From positions 1 through 36,471 of the forward strand of contig CAIQWB010000114.1 of the NCBI GenBank assembly GCA_903875465.1: a stretch of DNA of 36,471 nt. Direction: 5' to 3'. Each line of letters opens with the position of its first letter. Positions within the stretch are counted from its first letter, which is position 1. The position numbers were made by a program, and so were the translations under genes. The notes under the pieces were generated by a model. It did no database searches. It had not been told where the DNA came from and saw only the letters and a program-made list of their open reading frames with translations. Shown here piece by piece: positions 4,941 through 15,950 of the stretch. The DNA comes from an uncultured Verrucomicrobia subdivision 3 bacterium. GTDB taxonomy: Bacteria; Verrucomicrobiota; Verrucomicrobiia; Limisphaerales; UBA11358.

Positions 4941-5630
4941 ATGAATACCACTCCCAGCGGGTCAGGGTCCAAAGGCAATGTCTACGTGGTGGATGACAAT
5001 GCGTCCTTCCTGCTTTCCGTATCGCGTCTGCTGCGGGCGGCGGGCTACACCGTGGAGACCTTCCCAGCGGCGGCCGATTTTCTGGCGCGCCTGACGCCGG
5101 AACTCCGCGGCTGCGTGGTGGCCGATTTGCAAATGCCGGGCATGAACGGATTGGAATTACAGGCCGCCTTGCAAAAAACGGGCAATCCCCTGCCCGTGAT
5201 CTTTATGAGTGGCCAGGGGGACATTCCCAGCACCGTGCGGGCCATGCGCCAGGGAGCGGAGGATTTTTTGACCAAAATCGCCCCCAAGGAAGATTTGCTG
5301 GCGGCCATCACCCGCGCGCTGGAGCGCGACTCCACAGAGCGCCAGGACCGCCAGCGCTGTGCCGAATTATTCACCCGGCTGGACCGGCTCAGTGAACGGG
5401 AACTGGAAGTGCTGGGGCAGGTGGTGCTCGGCAAATTGAACAAGCAAATTGCGGCGGAATTAGGAATTAATGAACGGACGGTAAAACTGCACCGCACCAG
5501 CATCACCCGCAAACTGGAAGTACCCTCGGTGGCCGAACTGACGCGGCTGACCCAAGAGGCGCGTTTGTTTAAAAATTACGCTCCCGCCTCCGACTCGCTC
5601 AAAAAATTACTCAACTGGCCCGTTGCCTGA
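4941..5630 (+). CDS. FixJ-type two-component response regulator (REC + LuxR HTH)
   Basis: A receiver domain spans about residues 13-128, with the acidic pair Asp18/Asp19, phospho-acceptor Asp62 in VADLQMPGMNG, Ser90 and the conserved Lys112. A LuxR/GerE helix-turn-helix covers about 148-205 (LSERELEVLGQVVLGKLNKQ, ending in NERTVKLHR). The length of 229 residues and the MPGMNG/FMSGQGDI motifs place it with FixJ/TtrR-like regulators. It lies 64 bases behind the histidine kinase, its likely phosphodonor. Its targets are not evident, as no obvious inverted-repeat operator was seen nearby. No good ribosome site precedes the ATG. Confidence 0.9.
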   Translation: MNTTPSGSGSKGNVYVVDDNASFLLSVSRLLRAAGYTVETFPAAADFLARLTPELRGCVVADLQMPGMNGLELQAALQKTGNPLPVIFMSGQGDIPSTVRAMRQGAEDFLTKIAPKEDLLAAITRALERDSTERQDRQRCAELFTRLDRLSERELEVLGQVVLGKLNKQIAAELGINERTVKLHRTSITRKLEVPSVAELTRLTQEARLFKNYAPASDSLKKLLNWPVA

Positions 5631-6457: not shown

Positions 6458-7768
6458 TCAAAGCTGTTTCATGACCCGGGCGGCGGCGGCGACAGTTTGG
6501 TCAATATCGGCTGGAGAGTGCGCGGCGGAAAGGAATCCGGCCTCAAACTGGGAAGGGGCCAGGTAAACCCCGGCCGCCAGCATCCCCTGGAAATATTTTT
6601 TAAACCGCTCCCGGTCGCTGTGCATAGCATCAGCTAGGTTGTGCACGGGGGTGCTGGTGAAGTAGCCGCAAAACATGGAGCCGCAGCGGTTAAATTGGAC
6701 GGGAATGCCCGCCTGCCGGGCGGCATCCGCGAGCCCAGCCTGAAGCTGGGCGCCCAGTTCCTCCAAACGTTGATAAGCGGCTGGCTGGGGGCTGGCAACG
6801 TCCGATCCCAACACGCCGAGTTCCTCGAGAGCGGCAATCCCGGCGGCCATGGCCAATGGGTTGCCGCTGAGGGTGCCGGCCTGGTAAACCGGACCCAAGG
6901 GAGCCAAGTAATCCATAATATCGGCCCGTCCCCCAAAAGCACCCACCGGCAGCCCGCCGCCGATAACCTTGCCAAAACAACTTAAATCGGGTTTGATGCC
7001 GAAGCGTTCCTGCGCCCCGCCCCGGGCCAGCCGGAAACCGGTCATCACTTCATCAAAAATTAGCAAGGCGTCCTCGGACCGGGTGATTTCGTGTAAAAAC
7101 TGCAAATAGCCGGGCCGCGGCAGATAAAGGCCGGCATTGCCGGGAACTGGTTCCACAATAATGCCGGCGATTTGGCCGGGGTTGGCGGCAAACACCGCCC
7201 GCACGGCGGCCTCATCATTGTAAGGCACCACGATGGTGTGCTGGGTAAAGGCGGCGGGAATGCCAGCGCTGTCTGGATGACCAAAGGTCAGCGCGCCGGA
7301 ACCCGCTTTTACCAGCAAGGAATCCACATGCCCGTGATAACAGCCATCAAATTTGATGATCTTTTCCCGGCGGGTGAAGCCACGAGCGAGGCGGATGGCG
7401 CTCATGCAAGCCTCGGTGCCGGAACTGGTCATGCGGACTTTTTGCACACTGGGCACCAGGGAACAAATCAAGCGGGCCATGGTGACTTCCAGCGGATTGG
7501 GAATCCCAAAGCTGGTGCCGTGGTCGGCGGCGGACTTCACGGCGGCGATGATTTTGGGATGGGCATGGCCGAGAATGGCGGGTCCCCAAGTGAGGACATA
7601 GTCAATGTAGTCATGGCCATCCACATCCCAGACCCGGCTGCCCCGGGCGCGGTTCACAAAGAATGGCTGGCCGCCCACGGCGCGAAAGGCCCGGACCGGG
7701 GAATTGACGCCACCGGGAATATAATTCAGGGCCTCGGCAAAGAGGGCTTGGGATTGAGCCTGGGACAT
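6458..7768 (-). CDS. hemL: Glutamate-1-semialdehyde 2,1-aminomutase
   Basis: Converts glutamate-1-semialdehyde to 5-aminolevulinate in the C5 pathway to tetrapyrroles, using pyridoxal phosphate. The 436-residue protein is full length. It shows the family N-terminus [12 protein letters not shown], the phosphate-binding [14 protein letters not shown], the cofactor aspartate in [12 protein letters not shown], and the PLP lysine Lys267 in [17 protein letters not shown]. The preceding DUF192 lipoprotein gene ends only 4 bases upstream on the same strand, so the two are co-transcribed. No functional link between them is known. Confidence 0.97.
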
Positions 7769-7772
7769 AAGG

Positions 7773-8288
7773 TTATTTGTGCAAAAACGTATCGGCCAGC
7801 GAACCCCGCTCCGTTTGAATGGCCATGCCGGGGGTCACATGATGGCGGTCAAACCAGCCATCACTGGTTTCCAGGACGAATTGAATGTTTTCCGAGGCGG
7901 CGATCACGCCATTGGTGTCCTCCTTTTCCAGATGATGAATTTCCGCAATGACGCCATCGGGGCTAATGTAAGCGGCCGAAATGGATTCGGGGCAATGATA
8001 CATCCAAAAATCGGCCCGCTGGGAGAAGGGCAGCACAAAGATCATGGCATCGGATTCCTGGATGTTCGTGCGATACATCATGCCCGTTTCCTCCTGCTCA
8101 GGAGAAAGGGCCATTTCGGCGGCCAGGGTTTCGGCGCCAAGGTAAAGCTTGATCGTGGCCAGCTTGGGTTGGGCGTGGGTGGGGTATTGATGCGGCTCCC
8201 CGGCGACCGGCGGTGGGACATCCGATTTCTGACAACCCGCCAGCCCGACGGCAGCCAGAACCAACCCGAGGAGCATGATCCGTTTCAT
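7773..8288 (-). CDS. DUF192-family lipoprotein
   Basis: The ATG at 8288 gives 171 residues with a type II signal peptide and lipobox LAGC, Cys19 being the lipidation site. An in-frame ATG at 8327 would spoil the signal peptide. The body carries the DUF192 (COG1430) signatures [14 protein letters not shown] and [22 protein letters not shown]192 proteins are small extracytoplasmic proteins without an assigned biochemical role. It is the first gene of an operon with hemL, 4 bases apart. Confidence 0.85.
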
Positions 8289-8391
8289 AGGAACAGCTTG
8301 CAAAATCCGGCTGGGGAATTCAATCAAAGGTTATGCCAAGGTGACAAGCGCGCTTGCAAGATCGGGACGGGACGGCTATTATAAGGCAGTT

Positions 8392-8505: not shown

Positions 8506-9393
8506 ATGCTCAAGCTTGAACAGTTGGCCGAATTGCTGGACCACCACCGGGCAGCCGCCAGCGCCGTGGTGCGCGAATTCACCGTAGGCGGCCGGCATTT
8601 CCCCTTTAATACCCGTCCCGCGGTAATGGGCGTGGTCAATCTCTCGGCGGATTCCTGGTATCGGGAAAGTGTGTGCCTGACGGCCGCCAGCGCCATTCAG
8701 CGGGGCATCACACTCGCGGCCCAAGGGGCCGATATGGTGGATGTGGGGGCGGAATCGACTCTGGCGCAGGCGGCGCGGGTGGATGAGGCGGCCCAAAACT
8801 CCCAACTCCTGCCGGTGATTCGGGAATTGCGCGCGGCCAAGGTGCTGGTTTCGGTGGAGACGTATCAGCCCGCCGTGACGCGGGCCTGCCTGGAGGCGGG
8901 GGCCAATATTCTGAATCTCACCGGCACGGATCGCAGTGACGAACTATTTCGGTTGGTGGCGGAGCATGACGCGGCGGTGATCATTTGCCATGTGCAGGGT
9001 AAAAATGTGCGGGAGGTGGGGGACTTTGATTTTGGCAGTGATCCCACGCAGATGTTGCATGATTACTTCGCGCGCCAGATTGAGCTGGCCCAGAAAAACG
9101 GGGTCGAGAAAATCTTCATTGATCCCGGGCTGGGGTTTTATTACCGCAATTTGCAGGACAGCGCGGTGCGGGTGCGGCATCAAATGAATGTATTCTTAAA
9201 TACCTTCCGGCTGCGCACTCTGGGCTTTCCGGTGTGTCATGCCCTGCCCCACGCGTTTGAATATTTTGGCGAGGAGGTGCGGTGTGCGGAACCGTTTTTT
9301 GCGGTGCTGGCGGCGCTGGGCAAAACGGATTTGTTTCGCACGCACGAAGTAAGCCGGGTCCGGGGGGTGTTGGACACCTTGCGGGTTTTCTGA
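8506..9393 (+). CDS. Dihydropteroate-synthase-like TIM-barrel protein with altered active site
   Basis: A 295-residue protein of the pterin-binding family. MGVVNLSADS (41-50) matches FolP MGILNVTPDS. VDVGAEST (78-85) matches IDVGGEST. FIDPGLGF (204-211) matches LLDPGFGF. RTHEV (278-282) matches RVHDV. Comparison with E. coli FolP, made from memory, shows losses. The Arg after GEST is Leu86. The pterin-site Asp is Glu118. The SRK motif that binds substrate phosphate and p-aminobenzoate is replaced around 243-249 (VCHALPH). An extra N-terminal 35 residues precede the domain. The ATG at 8506 has a weak GGAG upstream. It may be a non-folate paralogue or a highly diverged synthase. No folate genes adjoin it. 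Confidence 0.75.
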   Translation: MLKLEQLAELLDHHRAAASAVVREFTVGGRHFPFNTRPAVMGVVNLSADSWYRESVCLTAASAIQRGITLAAQGADMVDVGAESTLAQAARVDEAAQNSQLLPVIRELRAAKVLVSVETYQPAVTRACLEAGANILNLTGTDRSDELFRLVAEHDAAVIICHVQGKNVREVGDFDFGSDPTQMLHDYFARQIELAQKNGVEKIFIDPGLGFYYRNLQDSAVRVRHQMNVFLNTFRLRTLGFPVCHALPHAFEYFGEEVRCAEPFFAVLAALGKTDLFRTHEVSRVRGVLDTLRVF

Positions 9394-9410: not shown

Positions 9411-10394
9411 TCAAATTCGGCGGCAGAGAAAGACGCCTTCTTCGGTGGATGGGGTGATCCACTGTTGCAGGACTTGCAGTCCATGGGCGGCCAGGGCGGA
9501 CTGAACCCGGTCCGGGGTGTAGCGATAGGAGAAGAAGAGGCGAACGGCGGAGCCGGTCGGAAATTCAAAAACGTCGGTTTCGATTTCGATGCGGCAGGGA
9601 CGGGTGAAGTGAAATTGTCCGACCAGGCGTTGCAGTCCGCTGGCGGGATCGGCTTCGATCTCGAAGCGAAATTCCCCATCGCCACGTTCCACGCCCAAAT
9701 CCAGCAGGAAGGTGAGCAGCCACTCGCGGGTGGGGGCATTATCATACTGGGGGAAAATTTTTTGGACGCCGGCGGTATAATCGGGGCCAGGAGCTAAATT
9801 AGCGCTAAACAGCATAAAATCGCCGATTTTCAGCAAGGAGGCGAGGCGGGGAAGGATGCTGGAGGGCTCGAAATTGGGGATCATGCCGAAGAAAGTGAAC
9901 AGGCGGGTGGCCTGGGGGGCCAAGGTTTCGGCGAAGACTTCCGGGAGGTCGGTGGCGGCGGCCAGGTCGAAAACGAGGGGGTGACAGCGCTCCGGGGGGA
10001 CCACGGCCAAGGCGGCCTGGCGGGCGATCAGGACGAGGGCACTGGCGACATCGCAGGGGGCGTACCCGGCGGTGTGACCGGCGGCGGTCAGTTGTTTGAG
10101 CAGGCGGGTGTCTTTCTGGCCGCCACCACAGCCAAGGCCGACGACAACGACTTGAGGGGTCGCGATTTGGGCGGCGGCGGCGGAGAAGCTTTGTTCGTAA
10201 ACGGCCAGGCAATCGGCGTCGTTGCGGGTGGGGGAGTAGATTTGATGCAGGGCGAGCCACTTTTGGGCCTGCTTCACGCTGTCGTAATGAAACTTGTGGT
10301 TTACCTGACGGGTGCGCAGGGAGTTCAGCAGGTCCTGCCGGACTTGGTCCGGGAACTGGCTGGGGTGGATGGCGAGGTGGACGAGGGGGTTCAT
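9411..10394 (-). CDS. EgtD-like SAM-dependent methyltransferase (Methyltransf_33)
   Basis: A 327-residue protein resembling the histidine-specific methyltransferase family (EgtD and relatives). It has an N-terminal FHYDSVKQAQKWLAL region. The SAM loop is GLGCGGGQKDTRLLKQL (86-102). FTFFGMIPNFEP (167-178) is the counterpart of the EgtD glycine-asparagine loop. The C-terminal beta-rich section includes VFEFPTGSAVRLFFSYRY. EgtD trimethylates histidine for ergothioneine, but no egtB-type sulfoxide synthase is nearby and the substrate-pocket residues cannot be confirmed by eye. The ATG overlaps the toxin stop codon (ATGA), which suggests translational coupling. An in-frame extension upstream would overlap the whole 3' end of the toxin gene. 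Confidence 0.75.
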   Translation of the reverse strand: MNPLVHLAIHPSQFPDQVRQDLLNSLRTRQVNHKFHYDSVKQAQKWLALHQIYSPTRNDADCLAVYEQSFSAAAAQIATPQVVVVGLGCGGGQKDTRLLKQLTAAGHTAGYAPCDVASALVLIARQAALAVVPPERCHPLVFDLAAATDLPEVFAETLAPQATRLFTFFGMIPNFEPSSILPRLASLLKIGDFMLFSANLAPGPDYTAGVQKIFPQYDNAPTREWLLTFLLDLGVERGDGEFRFEIEADPASGLQRLVGQFHFTRPCRIEIETDVFEFPTGSAVRLFFSYRYTPDRVQSALAAHGLQVLQQWITPSTEEGVFLCRRI

Positions 10395-10891
10395 GGGGAG
10401 ATGGGTCCGGCTGGTCGCCGGTTTTGGTCGCGAAGCAGTGCCGCACGCATCAATTCCGGATCGAGCCGGACATTCGTTAGGCGCAACTTGGCGATGACGG
10501 CGGGAAGGTCGATCAGGTCGCGGGCGGCCGCCAGTTCCAACAAGCCGATGGTGCCGACCACCGCAAGTCCGCACTGGATTGCGGCTCTTCGCCCGGCACG
10601 GTCATCGATTAAAATGGCAGCGGCATGAATTTCCTGGGCTAGAGAAATCGCCTCCGTTTCGCCGGGATCAATATTCAGGGTTAGGTTGAGCGCCTTGGGC
10701 GACTGCACCGATACCCAATCGGGCAAACTGGCTGCCCATTGGCGCATGCTTGGCGGGGTATTCGCCTGCTGAAGTTCCCGAAAAACGGTTGGAGTAATGA
10801 TGATGTGCCGGAAGAGATCCGGCAGGAGACCCTCCGCACCGCATAAGACCAGATAATGCAGGGGGGAAGTATCAGAAACCACCACGCTCAC
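10391..10891 (-). CDS. PIN-domain toxin (DUF3368 type)
   Basis: A 166-residue PIN-domain ribonuclease of the DUF3368/COG2405 group. The acidic metal ligands are recognisable: Asp7 in VVVSDTSPL, Glu39 in VFREL, Glu78/Glu80 in DPGETEAISLA, and Asp96/Asp97 in ILIDDRAGR. The family motif VVGTIGLLELA follows at 111-121. The start is a GTG that overlaps the antitoxin stop (GTGA). Position behind a UPF0175-type gene matches the known UPF0175/DUF3368 type II toxin-antitoxin arrangement. RNA cleavage activity is inferred from the family. Confidence 0.85.
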   Translation of the reverse strand: MSVVVSDTSPLHYLVLCGAEGLLPDLFRHIIITPTVFRELQQANTPPSMRQWAASLPDWVSVQSPKALNLTLNIDPGETEAISLAQEIHAAAILIDDRAGRRAAIQCGLAVVGTIGLLELAAARDLIDLPAVIAKLRLTNVRLDPELMRAALLRDQNRRPAGPISP

Positions 10892-11154
10892 GAAGGCGAG
10901 AGGAGGTTGGCCAAAGTGACCTGGTCGGCAGCCAAATCTTCGGCAGAATAATTCAACAGGACAGCATGTTCGTTTAAGAACGTTTCCGTTTGCCAGTAAT
11001 CAAGCCCCAGCAGCATCCCGACTTGCCGCTGTGTGAGGCGACCAGTCCGATATCCCTCCACGGCGGCATCTGCCATAACATGGCGACCGACTGCGGCTGG
11101 GGTTCCACCCCATTGCCGCGCGATGTGATCGGGCATTTCCATGATGACCTGCAT
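10888..11154 (-). CDS. UPF0175-family antitoxin
   Basis: A small protein of 88 residues beginning at the ATG at 11154 (MQVIMEMPDHIARQW). The helical body YRTGRLTQRQVGMLLGLDYW and a hydrophobic, acidic C-terminus with NYSAEDL are typical of UPF0175 (COG2886) antitoxins. The helix-turn-helix-like segment probably binds the operon's own promoter. The frame stays open upstream to 11298, but that stretch is Pro-rich and unlike the family. It overlaps the toxin start by four bases. Autoregulation is inferred, and no clear operator was identified. Confidence 0.8.
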   Translation of the reverse strand: MQVIMEMPDHIARQWGGTPAAVGRHVMADAAVEGYRTGRLTQRQVGMLLGLDYWQTETFLNEHAVLLNYSAEDLAADQVTLANLLSPS

Positions 11155-11201
11155 AGACGTGAAACGATAGCACAACTCTGGCATCCCGTGCAATTTGCTT
11201 C

Positions 11202-12581
11202 TTAGTGATGGCCAACCCCCAAGCGGGGGCGGTTTTGGTATTTTTCGTAGAGCCGGGTGTGGCGGCTGGAGAGGTTGATTTCGTGGCCGGCTATCCACAG
11301 GCGCTGCACGCTGGTCTGGAGGTCGAAGATACTGCCGTTACAAATGAAGAAGGTGGCGTCGCGCCCGGGCTCGAGGGTGCCGAGGCGGTCGGCGACGCCC
11401 AGGCATTGGGCGGGGTAGAGGGTCAGGCCTTTAAGGGCTTCCTCCTCGGGATAACCAAACGCGATGGCCTGGGCGGCGTGGTACGGGAGGTTCCGGGCCA
11501 TGGCGGCTTCAAAGGCGCTGCCGCCGGTGGAAAAGATCACGGTCACCCCGGCCTGCCGCAAGACTTCCGGGGCGGTGTAGTGGACATCCAGCGGTTCGGT
11601 GTCCCGGACGGGTTGGGTGAAGACTTGCTCGTAAATTACGGGGATGTGGTTGGTGGCCAGCAGACGGGCGACCCGCCAGGCATCCATGCCCCCGGCCAGC
11701 ACCATCTGGAGATGGTTGGTGAGGGACCAGTTGACGGCGGACTTAATCTGGCGGAGTTCCCCGGCATGAATGACCACGGGAACCTCACCACGCAACGCGG
11801 GCAGCATGCCTTCCCACGCGGGCACCAAGGTGGGGGGATGGGCACTGCTGCGGGCGCGGGCGTAGGCGCGGGCATCATCGAAGAAGTTTTGGATGGCGGC
11901 CACCCGGCGGCGGCGTTCCTTGTCCTGATCGGCCAGGGAGGTGGCTTTGGCGGGATCGGCCAATTTTTCCTTGGGGGTGGTATCCAGGCCGAACTCGGGC
12001 CAGAACAGGTGCAGGGCGACCGGTCTTTTCACGAGCATTTGTTCCCAGGTCCAGCCGTCCATGGACATCAGGGCGGACTGGCCGGCGACGATTTTGCCCT
12101 GGGGCACAGGCTCGAAATAGGTGATGCCGTTGGCGCGGGTAACGGGGAGGAGTTCGGAATCGGGATTGACGGCGATCCAGGATTCCACATCCGGCGTGAA
12201 ATCGCCGACTTCGTTCAAATCCTGGCTGGCCCGGATGGCTTCGACTTCGGTGAGGCCGAGGGCGGAATCGACGGCGATGAGGCCGGGATAGAGCTGGGCG
12301 CCTTTGAGGTCGATGGTGGTAGTGTCGGCCGGCAAGGCGGGTGGGGCTTCGCCGCGAGCGGGATCGTAAACGCCGGTGATACGGTTTGAGGAGACTAACA
12401 AAATGCCATTGGTCATCGTGCCGTGGCTGGCGGTATGGATGATGCCGTTGGTGAAGAGGAGGGTTTGGGCGCGGAGTACAGGAATGGGGGCAAGGGATAG
12501 GAAAGCCAAAAGGAGGGCCAAGCGGAAAGGGATGCCGAGGGTGGTCGGGTGGTTATTTCGTGGCAACTGGCTGCGGGTCAC
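11202..12581 (-). CDS. Secreted amidohydrolase-family protein lacking the HxH metal motif
   Basis: A composite-domain amidohydrolase (COG1228-like) of about 459 residues. An N-terminal hydrophobic segment (RLALLLAFLSLAPIPVLRAQ) is a signal peptide. The beta-sandwich parts (GILLVSSNRITGVYD at the front, LGTLEPGRDATFFI at the back) and the barrel are recognisable. Where active members have PGxIDxHxH, this one reads YPGLIAVDSALGL, and the late catalytic Asp is also not evident (VTVIFSTGGS). The start is uncertain. GTG at 12581 is chosen, with TTG at 12566 and 12521 possible. The frame upstream runs through an intergenic hairpin element and is discounted. It follows the larger amidohydrolase gene on the same strand after about 220 bases. 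Confidence 0.75.
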   Translation of the reverse strand: MTRSQLPRNNHPTTLGIPFRLALLLAFLSLAPIPVLRAQTLLFTNGIIHTASHGTMTNGILLVSSNRITGVYDPARGEAPPALPADTTTIDLKGAQLYPGLIAVDSALGLTEVEAIRASQDLNEVGDFTPDVESWIAVNPDSELLPVTRANGITYFEPVPQGKIVAGQSALMSMDGWTWEQMLVKRPVALHLFWPEFGLDTTPKEKLADPAKATSLADQDKERRRRVAAIQNFFDDARAYARARSSAHPPTLVPAWEGMLPALRGEVPVVIHAGELRQIKSAVNWSLTNHLQMVLAGGMDAWRVARLLATNHIPVIYEQVFTQPVRDTEPLDVHYTAPEVLRQAGVTVIFSTGGSAFEAAMARNLPYHAAQAIAFGYPEEEALKGLTLYPAQCLGVADRLGTLEPGRDATFFICNGSIFDLQTSVQRLWIAGHEINLSSRHTRLYEKYQNRPRLGVGHH

Positions 12582-12703
12582 AGACCCGGGCTCCGGGGTG
12601 CGGCGCCCGGACGGGAGGTGGACGACGCATTGGGCGGGGCGGGCGGAGGCAAAGCGCTGCCGGCTGCCAGCCGGCGATACCGCCGATTGACAATCGGCGC
12701 TAC
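12571..12703. repeat. Intergenic hairpin cassette, copy 1
   Basis: An ordered set of palindromes: CGGGTC-ACA-GACCCG, then GCCGGCTGCCAGCCGGC (12659-12675), then GCCGATTGACAATCGGC (12682-12698) followed by GCTAC. The same order and intervening words such as GACGGGAGGT recur at 15951-16085. It may overlap the very 5' end of the downstream amidohydrolase gene, depending on the true start. Confidence 0.8.
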
Positions 12704-12763
12704 GGTGGAGATGGTCTCGGGGGTGGTTGGTGATCCCCATGTGCATGGTGCTAGCGACGGGCT

Positions 12764-12799
12764 GCGGGTCACCGACCGGCGCTCCGGAGGCAAAGGGGG
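12764..12799. repeat. Partial hairpin cassette copy
   Basis: GGGCTGCGGGTCACCGACCG and the following GCTCCGG repeat the first part of the cassette at 12571 and 15951. It stops just before the stop codon of the large amidohydrolase gene at 12800. Only the first palindrome is present, so this is a fragment. Confidence 0.5.
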
Positions 12800-15781
12800 T
12801 CATTGGGCACCTCCCTGGTGGTTTTGCTGGTCGAGGCAGTCGCGGTCGACGTTATCGTATTGGTGTTCGAGGGACACAGTGAAGAACGATTTCCCATGGT
12901 CGCCGCCGCCATCGCCGCCGCCACCGCCGGAAAGTTTGGCAATTTTTTTAGCTTTGGCGAGGAGGGCGTCATATTCCGGTTGCAAGCGGAGGGTGCGGGC
13001 GGCATCCAGTGCGCGGTCGAAATATTGCCGGCCATCGATCCACGTTTGCTGGCAGATGGTGGTGGAAGCGAGCGGGGCCTGCGACCAGAGGACAAAGTCG
13101 GCGTCCTTGCCGGGTTCGAGGGAACCGGTGAACTGGTCGATGTGCAGTTGCCTGGCGGCATTGAGGGAGACAAATTTAAAGGCCTCGGCGGGCGGGGTGC
13201 CGCCGTATTTCACGGCCTTGGCGGCTTCCAAATACAGGGTGCGGGCCAGCTCGGAGGAATCGGAGTTGAAGGTCACAGTCACCCCGTGATCATGGAGCAA
13301 ACTGCCGTTGTACGGGATGGCGTCGTAGACTTCAAACTTGTAGGCCCACCAGTCGGAGAAGGTGGAGACGCCGATGCCGGCGGCGGCGAGTTCATCGGCA
13401 ATTTTATAGGCTTCCAATCCGTGCTGGAACGTGGCGATGCGCACGCCGAAACTTTGCATGAGGCGGGTGAGCATGAGGAGCTCATCCTGCCGGTAGCCAT
13501 GGCAATGAATGAGGCGGGTGCCGTTGATGATTTCACCGATGGCTTCCAATTCCAAATCGCGGCGCGGGGCCAGGCCACCGTTACGCCGGTAATGGTCCCA
13601 GGCAGCGAGATATTGCCGGGCGGCGGTGAAGCGGTTGTTGTCGAACGTTTGCACGCCCATGCGGGTTTGGGGAAACCGGGTGACGAACTTCTCGCCCCAG
13701 TTGGATTGTTTCACATTTTCGCCGAGGGCAAATTTGATGCCTTGGGGGGCATGGGGATAAATCAAGTCGTCAGGGCCATCGCCGTCGCGGAGTTTGATGA
13801 CACAATTCTGGCCACCGATGGGATTGGCGGAGCCATGGAGCAAATTCACCATGGTCACCCCGCCGGCGAGCTGGCGGCGGAGGTTGGGGCTTTCGGAATT
13901 GACCACGTCACGAATGCGAACCATGGCGCTGGAGGGCAGCGTGGATTCGTTGACGAGGCCAAGAATATCGCTATGACTGTGGCAGTCGATGATGCCCGGG
14001 GTGAGGGTGCCGCCAGCGGCATCGAGGATGAACGCATTCGCAGGAATGTCGGAAAGATGCGGGCCCACGGCAATGATCTTGCCGCCGGAAGCCAGCAGGT
14101 CGGCGTTGGTTAAAATGCCTTGCGGTCCCTCGGTCCAAATGATGGCGTGGCGCACCAGGACCGCCGGCGGGTTGGTAATGGCTCCCCGCCCCTCCAGGGG
14201 CGAATGAGCCACCCGGATTTTCTGGGCGTCACGTAATTTATCGGCGTCCGATTTTTTATTTTCATCGGTTTTGCCAGCGATGGTATTGGTTCTCGAGTTG
14301 GTGCTGGCACCCACGGCGACCTGGTTGGTGGGACTATCGCTTTGGGCTGTGGAGGCAGCGGGCGGCTTCTCGCCTTCGGGGGGCAGCGGGAAATTGCGGC
14401 CATCCACCCAGACGGCGGTAACTTTGGCGGCGGGGTCAAAATAACTGCCGCCGGTGACCACCGTGAGATTGGCGATGCGGCCCGGTTCCAGTGTGCCGAG
14501 CACCTGATCCACCCCGCACAACCGTGCGGGCACAGTGGTGAGGGCAGCGAGTGCGTCGGTCTCACTCAGGCCACGGTCGAGCGCGAGCCGGAGGTTGGGG
14601 CGGAAGTCCTTGGGGTCGGCCAAGCCGCGCGTGGTGAGGGCGATGTCGAGGCCCTGCTGGCGGAGCACGGCGGGGTTTTCCGGGGCCCAATCCCAGGCGC
14701 GCAAGGGTTCCAAGGTGACTTGGGTCCAGTCGTCCTCATCGGGCATTTGGGGGAGCGTGGGGAAATTGACAGGGACGATGAAGGTGGCTCCGGTGTGTCT
14801 GGCCAAATCGGGCCGGCGCCATTCCTGGCCGCTGGCAAGGAGGGCGAAGTTCAGGCGCAGTTCCCCGGCGATCCGGGCGGCACGGTCATCCATCAAGACA
14901 CTGCCGGGCTCGAACAGGACGGGCATTTGGCGCTGGGCGGCGGGAGTGAGGGCCTCGAGGGCGGGATTATACTCGGGACGCGGGCGGCCGGTGGGGTGTT
15001 GCTGATAATCGGCGTGGTTGGCGAGATAATATTGGGTGTCGAAAAAAGTTTGGCGCACGGCGGCGATCACCCCCATGAGGGAACCGGGGAACGTGGCATC
15101 GTCGTTATCGTGGGTGTCGAAGGCAATGTGTTGGAAAACGTCGGGCCGGAGGATGGCGTCGTTGGGGTCGCCGTCGGATAATTGGACGAAGGCGCTGGTG
15201 CCTTGGAAGATGCCCCGGCCAGGCACGACGAGCGCGGCGGTGAAACCGAGTTCGCGCAGGCCGGCGACATTTTTTGTCGTGGGAGAATAGGTGCGGGCGG
15301 CACGGTATTCCGGGGTAAAACCGGGCCAGAAAGCGCCGGGGCTGGATTTGGCGGCGGCATTGTTCTCGGTGGTGGTGCCGAAAAAGCGGTAGCCACCGGC
15401 CGTCAAACTCGCATGGGAAACCGGTTCGATGTCATCCGTATTGACCGGAGCACGGGCATTGCCGGGCACGAAGTCCGATTCGATAAAGCCGGCGTAGATG
15501 GTATTGCTGTGCATGTCCCAAACCCGGGCGTCATCGGGAATGGCAATGTTGGCGCCGACGGCCTGGATGTAACCATCGCGCAGCAGGAGCGTGCCATTGG
15601 TGATGGTTTCGCCGGGACGGACGACCACATTGCCACCGACGAGCGCGTGGATGCCGGGCGGCAGCGGGCGGAAGCCGGGGGGGCGCAATTCGTCAGCCTG
15701 GGCGATCCCCAGCGTACAAAGAAAGGTGAGGCTGCCCTGGAGGAGGGATACCAAACGCCATGGCCGGTTGAAACTAGTCAC
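12800..15781 (-). CDS. Secreted tandem-domain amidohydrolase (degenerate N-half, intact C-half)
   Basis: About 993 residues from the GTG at 15781, with a signal peptide ending near IAQA/DE. Two amidohydrolase modules are fused. In the N-terminal module (about 35-465) the metal-binding HxH position reads YAGFIESDF. The second module (about 535-925) has TPGIIDCHSHSD with His601/His603, His759/His761 in LIHCHGYR, His787 in TFQHGLEA and Asp841 in FNSDSS, a full ligand set. A Ser/Asn/Lys-rich linker joins them. The C-terminus has a Gly/Asp-rich patch (GGGGGDGGGDHGK). A TTG at 15832 is an alternative start. The substrate is unknown; the family includes imidazolonepropionase- and prolidase-like enzymes. 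It is followed by a second degenerate family member. Confidence 0.85.
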   Translation of the reverse strand: MTSFNRPWRLVSLLQGSLTFLCTLGIAQADELRPPGFRPLPPGIHALVGGNVVVRPGETITNGTLLLRDGYIQAVGANIAIPDDARVWDMHSNTIYAGFIESDFVPGNARAPVNTDDIEPVSHASLTAGGYRFFGTTTENNAAAKSSPGAFWPGFTPEYRAARTYSPTTKNVAGLRELGFTAALVVPGRGIFQGTSAFVQLSDGDPNDAILRPDVFQHIAFDTHDNDDATFPGSLMGVIAAVRQTFFDTQYYLANHADYQQHPTGRPRPEYNPALEALTPAAQRQMPVLFEPGSVLMDDRAARIAGELRLNFALLASGQEWRRPDLARHTGATFIVPVNFPTLPQMPDEDDWTQVTLEPLRAWDWAPENPAVLRQQGLDIALTTRGLADPKDFRPNLRLALDRGLSETDALAALTTVPARLCGVDQVLGTLEPGRIANLTVVTGGSYFDPAAKVTAVWVDGRNFPLPPEGEKPPAASTAQSDSPTNQVAVGASTNSRTNTIAGKTDENKKSDADKLRDAQKIRVAHSPLEGRGAITNPPAVLVRHAIIWTEGPQGILTNADLLASGGKIIAVGPHLSDIPANAFILDAAGGTLTPGIIDCHSHSDILGLVNESTLPSSAMVRIRDVVNSESPNLRRQLAGGVTMVNLLHGSANPIGGQNCVIKLRDGDGPDDLIYPHAPQGIKFALGENVKQSNWGEKFVTRFPQTRMGVQTFDNNRFTAARQYLAAWDHYRRNGGLAPRRDLELEAIGEIINGTRLIHCHGYRQDELLMLTRLMQSFGVRIATFQHGLEAYKIADELAAAGIGVSTFSDWWAYKFEVYDAIPYNGSLLHDHGVTVTFNSDSSELARTLYLEAAKAVKYGGTPPAEAFKFVSLNAARQLHIDQFTGSLEPGKDADFVLWSQAPLASTTICQQTWIDGRQYFDRALDAARTLRLQPEYDALLAKAKKIAKLSGGGGGDGGGDHGKSFFTVSLEHQYDNVDRDCLDQQNHQGGAQ

Positions 15782-15950
15782 GGGATGGCAGAGTGGGAGG
15801 AAATCCGCGAAAAGGCAAGCGGCTTGAAACAAAGCGGGGTGGTATAAGAACTGTGAAGCTGACTGCGGGGCTAAGAGGCGGTTAGCTTACGCGGCAGTCA
15901 AGGGTGGGGTACGTCGGCTGAGGTTCGGACTTTTGCTGGTTGGTCAACGG

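Follow-up and report, generated by a model that had tools for sequence, protein, structure and literature searches.

The window analysed here, i.e. the whole stretch of 36,471 nucleotides from a contig of an uncultured Verrucomicrobia subdivision 3 bacterium, contains an open reading frame (ORF) of 295 codons exactly at positions 8506-9393 of the forward strand. Its product resembles dihydropteroate synthase (DHPS, FolP), and it is faced on the opposite strand by a gene for a putative methyltransferase related to EgtD. The two features, referred to from this point onwards as the DHPS-like and the EgtD-like genes, are the following:

8506..9393, + strand: DHPS-like protein, 295 aa (ORF list, Pfam, AF2 model, alignments); altered acceptor site: L86, E118, Y120, C244, P248; retained: N45, T85, N137, D206, R278, H280.
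9411..10394, - strand: EgtD-like SAM-dependent methyltransferase (Methyltransf_33; Pfam PF10017, E 1.7e-19), convergent with the DHPS-like gene.

For the EgtD-like gene, the ORF list gives 9411-10574; the shorter version above begins at the Met of MNPLVHL, a start proposed from the alignment. The stop codons of the two genes are 17 bases apart and, since the genes are convergent, they do not form an operon. Upstream of the DHPS-like gene, positions 6458-8327 hold hemL (glutamate-1-semialdehyde aminomutase) and an ORF for a DUF192 protein, relatives of the latter being present in 8 of 48 DHPS-like loci (the window and 47 fetched loci holding the gene, whose products are called the 48 members below). 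On the other side, upstream of the EgtD-like gene (10391-11298, - strand), there are two small overlapping ORFs, 10391-10891 and 10888-11298, which we take to resemble a PIN-type toxin with a UPF0175-like antitoxin. Two consecutive exported-amidohydrolase-like ORFs of 1010 and 533 aa occupy 12800-15832 and 11202-12803 on the same minus strand, the 533-aa one, the sole member of the pair scanned, matching PF01979.

The DHPS-like protein matches the Pfam family PF00809 (Pterin_bind) from residue 41 with an E-value of 4.1e-35 (122 bits against a cut-off of 25.5). Its AF2 model, for which the window protein was combined with 57 homologues (pLDDT 86.4, pTM 0.88), is best matched in VIA-align by the DHPS 3tyz (Z 29.2, rmsd 2.4 over 260 residues), and the closest folds listed (50 entries; Foldseek and VIA-align) are DHPS or Sul enzymes. 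The ORF is therefore not a chance one, and the DHPS fold implied by the original prediction, made from the DNA letters alone, is confirmed. As seen from both the Pfam span and the model, nothing of domain size lies outside the barrel. The score in the DHPS equivalog model TIGR01496 (135.6 bits) stays below the cut-off of 162.6; the archaeal DHPS-like model TIGR00284 is not reached either (29.9 bits against 256.65), and the NCBIfam models of Sul1-4 give 59.5-65.7 bits against cut-offs of 475-600. A remote match was found to 2vp8, the structure of the mycobacterial FolP2 (Rv1207), with an E-value of 9.9e-16, the likeness being one of score and description.

Concerning the active site, the window protein and 13 relatives were aligned with 22 canonical FolPs, namely that of E. 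coli and 21 from related genomes, the latter ORFs having been picked by a script whose pattern includes STRP and thereby touches on R63 and P64 themselves; all loci passed it. The E. coli residues R63, P64, D96, S219 and K221, each invariant in 22/22 canonical rows, are all replaced in the window protein. R63 corresponds to Leu86, P64 to Ala87, D96 to Glu118 and S219 to Pro248, while K221 stands opposite Glu252 within the gapped stretch 213-256, the least certain part of the alignment; in this alignment, none of these residues is conserved at a shifted position. The original statements that the Arg of GESTRP, the pterin-site Asp and the SRK motif have been exchanged are thus borne out. Among the 14 family rows, the equivalent of Arg63 is Leu, with Val in one row, and at position 86 of the 48 members Leu was found 43 times, Val three times and Ile twice, position 87 being variable (Pro in 4/48). 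Further replacements in the 14 rows concern F28, which has become W51, and the DGG of loop 1, now R53, E54 and S55. Conversely, N22, N115, D185, R255 and H257, i.e. the pterin and diphosphate/Mg residues, are kept in 14/14 rows as N45, N137, D206, R278 and H280 and are present in 48/48 members, and position 85, the equivalent of T62, is occupied by Thr in 31 members and by Ser in the other 17. The residues invariant in the 48 members comprise W51, Y52, E54, Q97, E118, Y120, T139, R169, Y213, N215, R222, Q226, C244, A246, L247, P248, E262, R278 and H280.

It should be pointed out that E. coli F28, P64, F190, K221 and T62 are presumed to be the equivalents of S. aureus Phe17, Pro53, Phe172, Lys203 and Thr51, respectively. 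In the S. aureus enzyme, the first four of these form the pABA pocket of DHPS and Thr51 of loop 2 binds both the pABA amine and PPi (PMC6057106). At the mapped positions, F28 (W51), P64 and K221 are replaced, whereas F190 (F211) and T62 are kept. As judged by sequence, the part of the site that handles the pterin and the leaving group is preserved, and the part for pABA has been remodelled in a largely fixed manner. The DHPS-like proteins thus have in common with FolP (TIGR01496, PF00809) the TIM barrel, the Asn/Asp of the pterin pocket, the equivalents of N22, R255 and H257 and the Thr/Ser of loop 2, but differ from it in R63, P64, D96, S219, K221, F28 and the DGG of loop 1.

The DHPS-like protein also coexists with FolP. 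The genome from which the window originates possesses a separate canonical folP scoring 283.9 bits (G000:C5), in addition to metH (C10), so that the DHPS-like gene is not the only folP homologue present. Among 59 genomes around the genus and order of the window, 55 (own included) carry the DHPS-like gene, the four without it being G016, G040, G044 and G058, and 52 of the 55 carriers have a second, FolP-like match (none was found in G004, G014 and G030); canonical residues were confirmed in all 20 of these 52 matches that were read. Elsewhere in the class, a FolP-sized match of at least 197 bits occurs in 25 of 28 carriers, the exceptions being G365 (76% complete), G372 and G389, the last two of which have genus mates with such a match. 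The folP gene was fetched from 20 genomes, and in all 19 of these that carry the DHPS-like gene, the DHPS-like protein is closer to the copy in the window's genome than FolP is to its own counterpart there (means of 73.9 and 65.6% identity, the two values coming from two programs, blastp in the case of FolP). This conservation above FolP in 19/19 genomes, together with the invariance of Glu118, Pro248 and many other new residues in the 48 members, indicates on sequence grounds that the DHPS-like gene is no decaying copy and is under strong purifying selection. The doubt originally raised about ordinary folate synthesis is supported by the coexisting FolP and by the replacement of the pABA-site residues, several of them by invariant ones. 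A few genomes contain an extra Pterin_bind match of 55-78 bits in frames of 300-406 aa (G346:C21, G365:C347, G355:C13 and G402:C71), lying outside FolP, MetH and the DHPS-like family and possibly representing a methyl-carrier transferase.

With regard to distribution, the DHPS-like gene (E <= 1e-50) was found in 7 of 288 genomes drawn across the phylum (own included) and in 51 of 141 genomes of the class, of which 23 (own included) belong to the window's order and 28 to other orders. Eleven of the latter 28 form one family, f27, with genomes of 2.2-2.5 Mb, which we infer to be Methylacidiphilaceae and to belong to or lie near the genus of M. infernorum; each of these genomes has one FolP match and one DHPS-like match, and a MetH-like PF00809 match is absent from all of them (G130, G323 and nine others). 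Methylacidiphilum strain SolV is described as having two folP genes, the alternative one being constitutively expressed (PMC3404531). Since every f27 genome has one FolP and one DHPS-like protein, the alternative folP of SolV would belong to the present family, provided that the assignment of f27 holds. A scan of named genomes by two peptide patterns yielded 502 relatives, the best 80 of which all bear verrucomicrobial or unspecific titles, such as Pedosphaera, Limisphaerales, Verrucomicrobia subdivision 3 and similar. Several contigs titled Akkermansia muciniphila or Methylacidimicrobium fagopyrum (L100, L108, L125, L140 and L147) contain a gene 74-78% identical to that of the window, and these titles seem not to fit.

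Outside the phylum, one relative was found among the matches listed, encoded on a 49-kb plasmid of Roseibium porphyridii and exhibiting 40% identity over 98%. It shares with the family Y52, R53, E54, GEST without the Arg, E118, Y120, R169, R222, Q226, R278 and H280, and is without W51, N215, C244 and P248. Its gene is placed in a row of folB, DHPS-like and a FolM-like SDR (L162:19507-21663), and the annotations of the flanking genes point to hydroxyproline breakdown and nitrate assimilation. This was the one clear relative among 15 matches listed in a search of plasmid records that ended at 5000; a search with the Roseibium protein itself, ending at the same number, gave, among 40 matches listed, none between that protein and FolP-level matches, and 11 pattern stretches in viral contigs included no relative. 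In the evolutionary tree, the DHPS-like family is joined with the Roseibium protein on a single, very long branch (100/100; 4.99), which falls within the verrucomicrobial FolPs, a position that may possibly reflect long-branch attraction. The MetH from the window's genome, a single row with a very long branch, stands apart from the DHPS-like protein, which groups with FolP.

The DHPS-like gene tracks the EgtD-like methyltransferase and, outside the window's order, an SDR. An EgtD-like gene (E <= 1e-15) is present in 40 of the 141 class genomes, i.e. in 39/51 carriers and 1/90 non-carriers (Fisher p 5.8e-23), and the SDR in 26, i.e. in 24/51 carriers and 2/90 non-carriers (Fisher p 5.9e-11), at a line of 250 bits set after a gap from 256 to 164 bits had been seen; in large genomes, only 19 (SDR) or 15 (EgtD-like) first-look candidates were scored. 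These counts ignore shared ancestry, which is addressed only by a manual tally of genome families, with EgtD-like in 18/26 carrier families and 1/21 others (p 5e-6), and they have one control of the same kind, a neighbour gene from some order loci, which exhibits no link (18/51 carriers, 26/90 others, p 0.45). The 23 order genomes gave no SDR reaching 250 bits, and six of them have weaker matches of 142-158 bits; a reduction step would therefore be performed there by another enzyme, or be absent. Neither partner occurs in 10 of the 51 carriers, nine of these being from the window's order. Conversely, G368 (75% complete) has both the SDR and the EgtD-like gene with no DHPS-like match, and G402 has the SDR, likewise with no DHPS-like match in the genome and with no DHPS-like sequence in the surrounding 13 kb.

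The adjacency of the genes follows several patterns. Of 18 loci from outside the order, six, covering five families, have the DHPS-like gene and the SDR back to back in the same orientation, with a 4-base overlap in five of the six pairs (that in L077 depends on the start chosen). The EgtD-like gene adjoins the DHPS-like one in 13 of 30 order loci, the convergent pair of the window included, and in G413, from another order, the two are on the same strand. Where a genome has both partners, these are neighbours in 13 of 23 cases: divergent in the 11 f27 genomes, on the same strand with 62 bases between the matches in G354, and convergent in G406. In f27, the DHPS-like gene is located 9 to 33 kb from the SDR/EgtD-like pair on the same contig in 10 genomes and on another contig in G385. 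It should be noted that 20 later loci were picked for holding the SDR or the EgtD-like gene, so that the family counts of these two genes come out too high and do not serve as evidence.

Further genes were considered as partners and set aside. In the neighbour count over the 48 loci, with antisense shadows of the DHPS-like gene left aside, the most frequent clusters are an SCO1/DUF420 group (16) and the EgtD-like gene (15), followed by cytochrome oxidase genes. The members of this oxidase cluster, recognised by eye as SCO1, DUF420, COX1-3 and heme A synthase, come almost all from the window's order when beside the gene, and the arrangement was taken as synteny. In L034, L039, L040, L047, L053, L080, L081, L199 and other order loci, the DHPS-like gene, often along with the EgtD-like one, is found by this cluster, and in G057 the EgtD-like gene is still there, the DHPS-like gene being 176 kb off on the same contig. 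In four families, an NAD-dependent epimerase is located close to the genes; it was discarded as a partner because 114/141 genomes have it, regardless of carriage. FolB is found in 130/141 genomes, with a second match in two (one a fragment) and no extra copy in carriers as a group. Neither FolA nor the aromatic hydroxylases proved to be a correlate of the DHPS-like gene.

As to the nature of the partner proteins, the catalytic Ser of the SDR is exchanged for Asp in 7/7 aligned sequences, and D139, Y154 and K158 (numbering of A4) are invariant in all seven. We take this Asp to occupy the position of the catalytic Asp of PTR1, i.e. to be of the pteridine-reductase type, and that of the Roseibium SDR aligns with those of FolM and PTR2. 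The linked SDR thus resembles PTR1, FolM and PruA in having Asp for the catalytic Ser and in being linked with pterin genes. The motif TGX3RXG, given for PTR1/FolM in PMC1971073, is present in the Roseibium SDR, whose best match is FolM (E 2.7e-39), but absent from 6/6 verrucomicrobial SDRs, four having TGX3GXG and two a two-residue insert; the best solved relatives of these six are FabG-like reductases and an acyl-CoA dehydrogenase, with no pteridine reductases. The EgtD-like protein belongs to the same Methyltransf_33 family as the histidine N-methyltransferase EgtD, of which it is a remote homologue (best E 1.7e-11), its score in TIGR03438 being 53.1 bits against a cut-off of 290.9. The Asn, Tyr and Ser of the EgtD amino-acid site align in it. 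The Glu and Met of 4pim, which are Ala and Val in 4pip (presumably a designed EgtD variant), correspond here to Phe and Gly/Ala/Val. Because the Asn/Tyr/Ser align and the Glu position is Phe, the predicted substrate is probably an alpha-amino acid other than histidine.

Based on the above results, we hold with moderate confidence that the DHPS-like gene is a neofunctionalised DHPS paralogue of a pterin pathway not leading to folate, its product attaching a pterin-methylene group to some acceptor different from pABA, because the DHPS fold and the pterin and diphosphate residues are kept, the pABA clamp is rebuilt, a FolP coexists, selection acts on the gene and partner genes accompany it. The protein would bind 6-hydroxymethyl-7,8-dihydropterin diphosphate in the kept pocket, and the substrate would ionise and expel diphosphate, leaving a pterin-methylene cation as in DHPS, the mechanism of which is described as SN1, diphosphate leaving ahead of the attack by the nucleophile (PMC10328974). 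The cation would then be captured by a nucleophile which is not pABA and which is aligned through Thr/Ser85 and kept in place by the new residues. An amine or hydroxyl appears the likeliest acceptor group, since Thr/Ser85, the equivalent of the Thr aligning the pABA amine, is kept. In the lineages having one, the SDR would reduce the dihydropterin ring to the tetrahydro form, and the EgtD-like enzyme may N-methylate an alpha-amino acid that is the acceptor or a part of the product, the combined product being a conjugated tetrahydropterin distinct from both folate and methanopterin. More tentatively, the three genes might together make a coenzyme or metabolite of a third pterin-methylene type, in addition to folate and methanopterin. 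Its C6-methylene would be joined to an acceptor outside the pABA-type arylamines, perhaps an N-methylated amino acid, and its pterin would be reduced by the dedicated SDR where this is present.

It is unlikely that, instead, a free tetrahydropterin of the monapterin kind is made or salvaged, the barrel hydrolysing or rearranging the dihydropterin diphosphate without any organic acceptor and the SDR converting the product by reduction into a cofactor or antioxidant, in the manner of FolX and FolM of E. coli. The retained diphosphate site, the SDR with the pteridine-reductase-type Asp beside the DHPS-like gene in 6/18 loci and the folB and FolM-like SDR of the Roseibium row would all suit such a pathway. 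However, pterin-dependent aromatic hydroxylases, the usual users of a tetrahydropterin cofactor, are found (PF00351) in 0/51 carriers and 8/90 non-carriers, the many invariant residues of the rebuilt acceptor region would hardly be needed by a mere hydrolase, and the methyltransferase would be left without a role. A second, divergent but ordinary DHPS, for example a sulfonamide-tolerant one, seems even less probable. The fold, the 135.6 bits in TIGR01496 and the kept equivalents of F190 and T62 agree with it, and the sulfonamide-resistant Sul1/2/3, likewise divergent with a remodelled pABA region, are described as remaining DHPS (PMC10328974). The DHPS-like gene, however, unlike an acquired resistance gene, resides in 55/59 relatives; its product is far under the Sul1-4 cut-offs and below that of TIGR01496, R63, P64, D96, S219 and K221 are replaced, 52/55 and 25/28 carriers have a FolP or FolP-like match besides, and a methyltransferase and a reductase are associated with it. 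The mycobacterial FolP2 is comparable in being a second folP that does not act as DHPS, the M. leprae folP2 failing to complement (PMC1971073); it clusters in high-GC Gram-positives with cell-wall genes, the DHPS-like gene being linked to the methyltransferase and, in part of the class, the SDR.

The original prediction had suggested a different pterin reaction or one related to methyl carriers; the former part is sustained by the linked SDR with its pteridine-reductase-type Asp and by the Roseibium row, while the latter part finds no such backing. Enzymes of the MtrH/AcsE/MetH kind, which would use a methyl-tetrahydropterin, belong to the same family PF00809, and a loss of pABA residues is expected there too. 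Still, Arg278-x-His280 of the DHPS diphosphate site and Asn45 are kept in 48/48 members, the 50 closest folds listed are all DHPS or Sul, and M. infernorum, to which f27 is related by inference, is reported as unable to make cobalamin (PMC2474590), so that a methyl-carrier transferase appears very unlikely. Least probable of all is a stand-in for the dihydrofolate reductase FolA, although this has been proposed in print for the FolP of Methylacidiphilum infernorum by Hou et al. 2008, by analogy with the bifunctional Helicobacter enzyme (PMC2474590, PMC3404531), and although FolA (PF00186) has no match in 11/11 f27 genomes. As 32/51 carriers do have FolA (21/23 in the order, own genome included), as do 66/90 non-carriers, its replacement is not general. 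Moreover, the Helicobacter DHPS/dihydropteroate reductase has an extra reductase domain, for which a single barrel of 295 aa with Pterin_bind from residue 41 has no room, and the linked SDR is the better reductase candidate; it could be the missing dihydrofolate reductase in f27.

The literature searched gave no earlier description of such a presumed functional variant of DHPS accompanied by two co-distributed genes; in that mostly open-access literature, no paper was found that connects a DHPS paralogue both with an SDR and with a methyltransferase of the EgtD-like kind. Public records label such genes as dihydropteroate synthase, whereas the present data point to a separate enzyme. If a non-folate pterin conjugate is made, Verrucomicrobiota of soil and freshwater would contain a cofactor or metabolite that has so far escaped notice, and the third coenzyme, if true, would be widespread in a class of this phylum that is rich in uncultured members.
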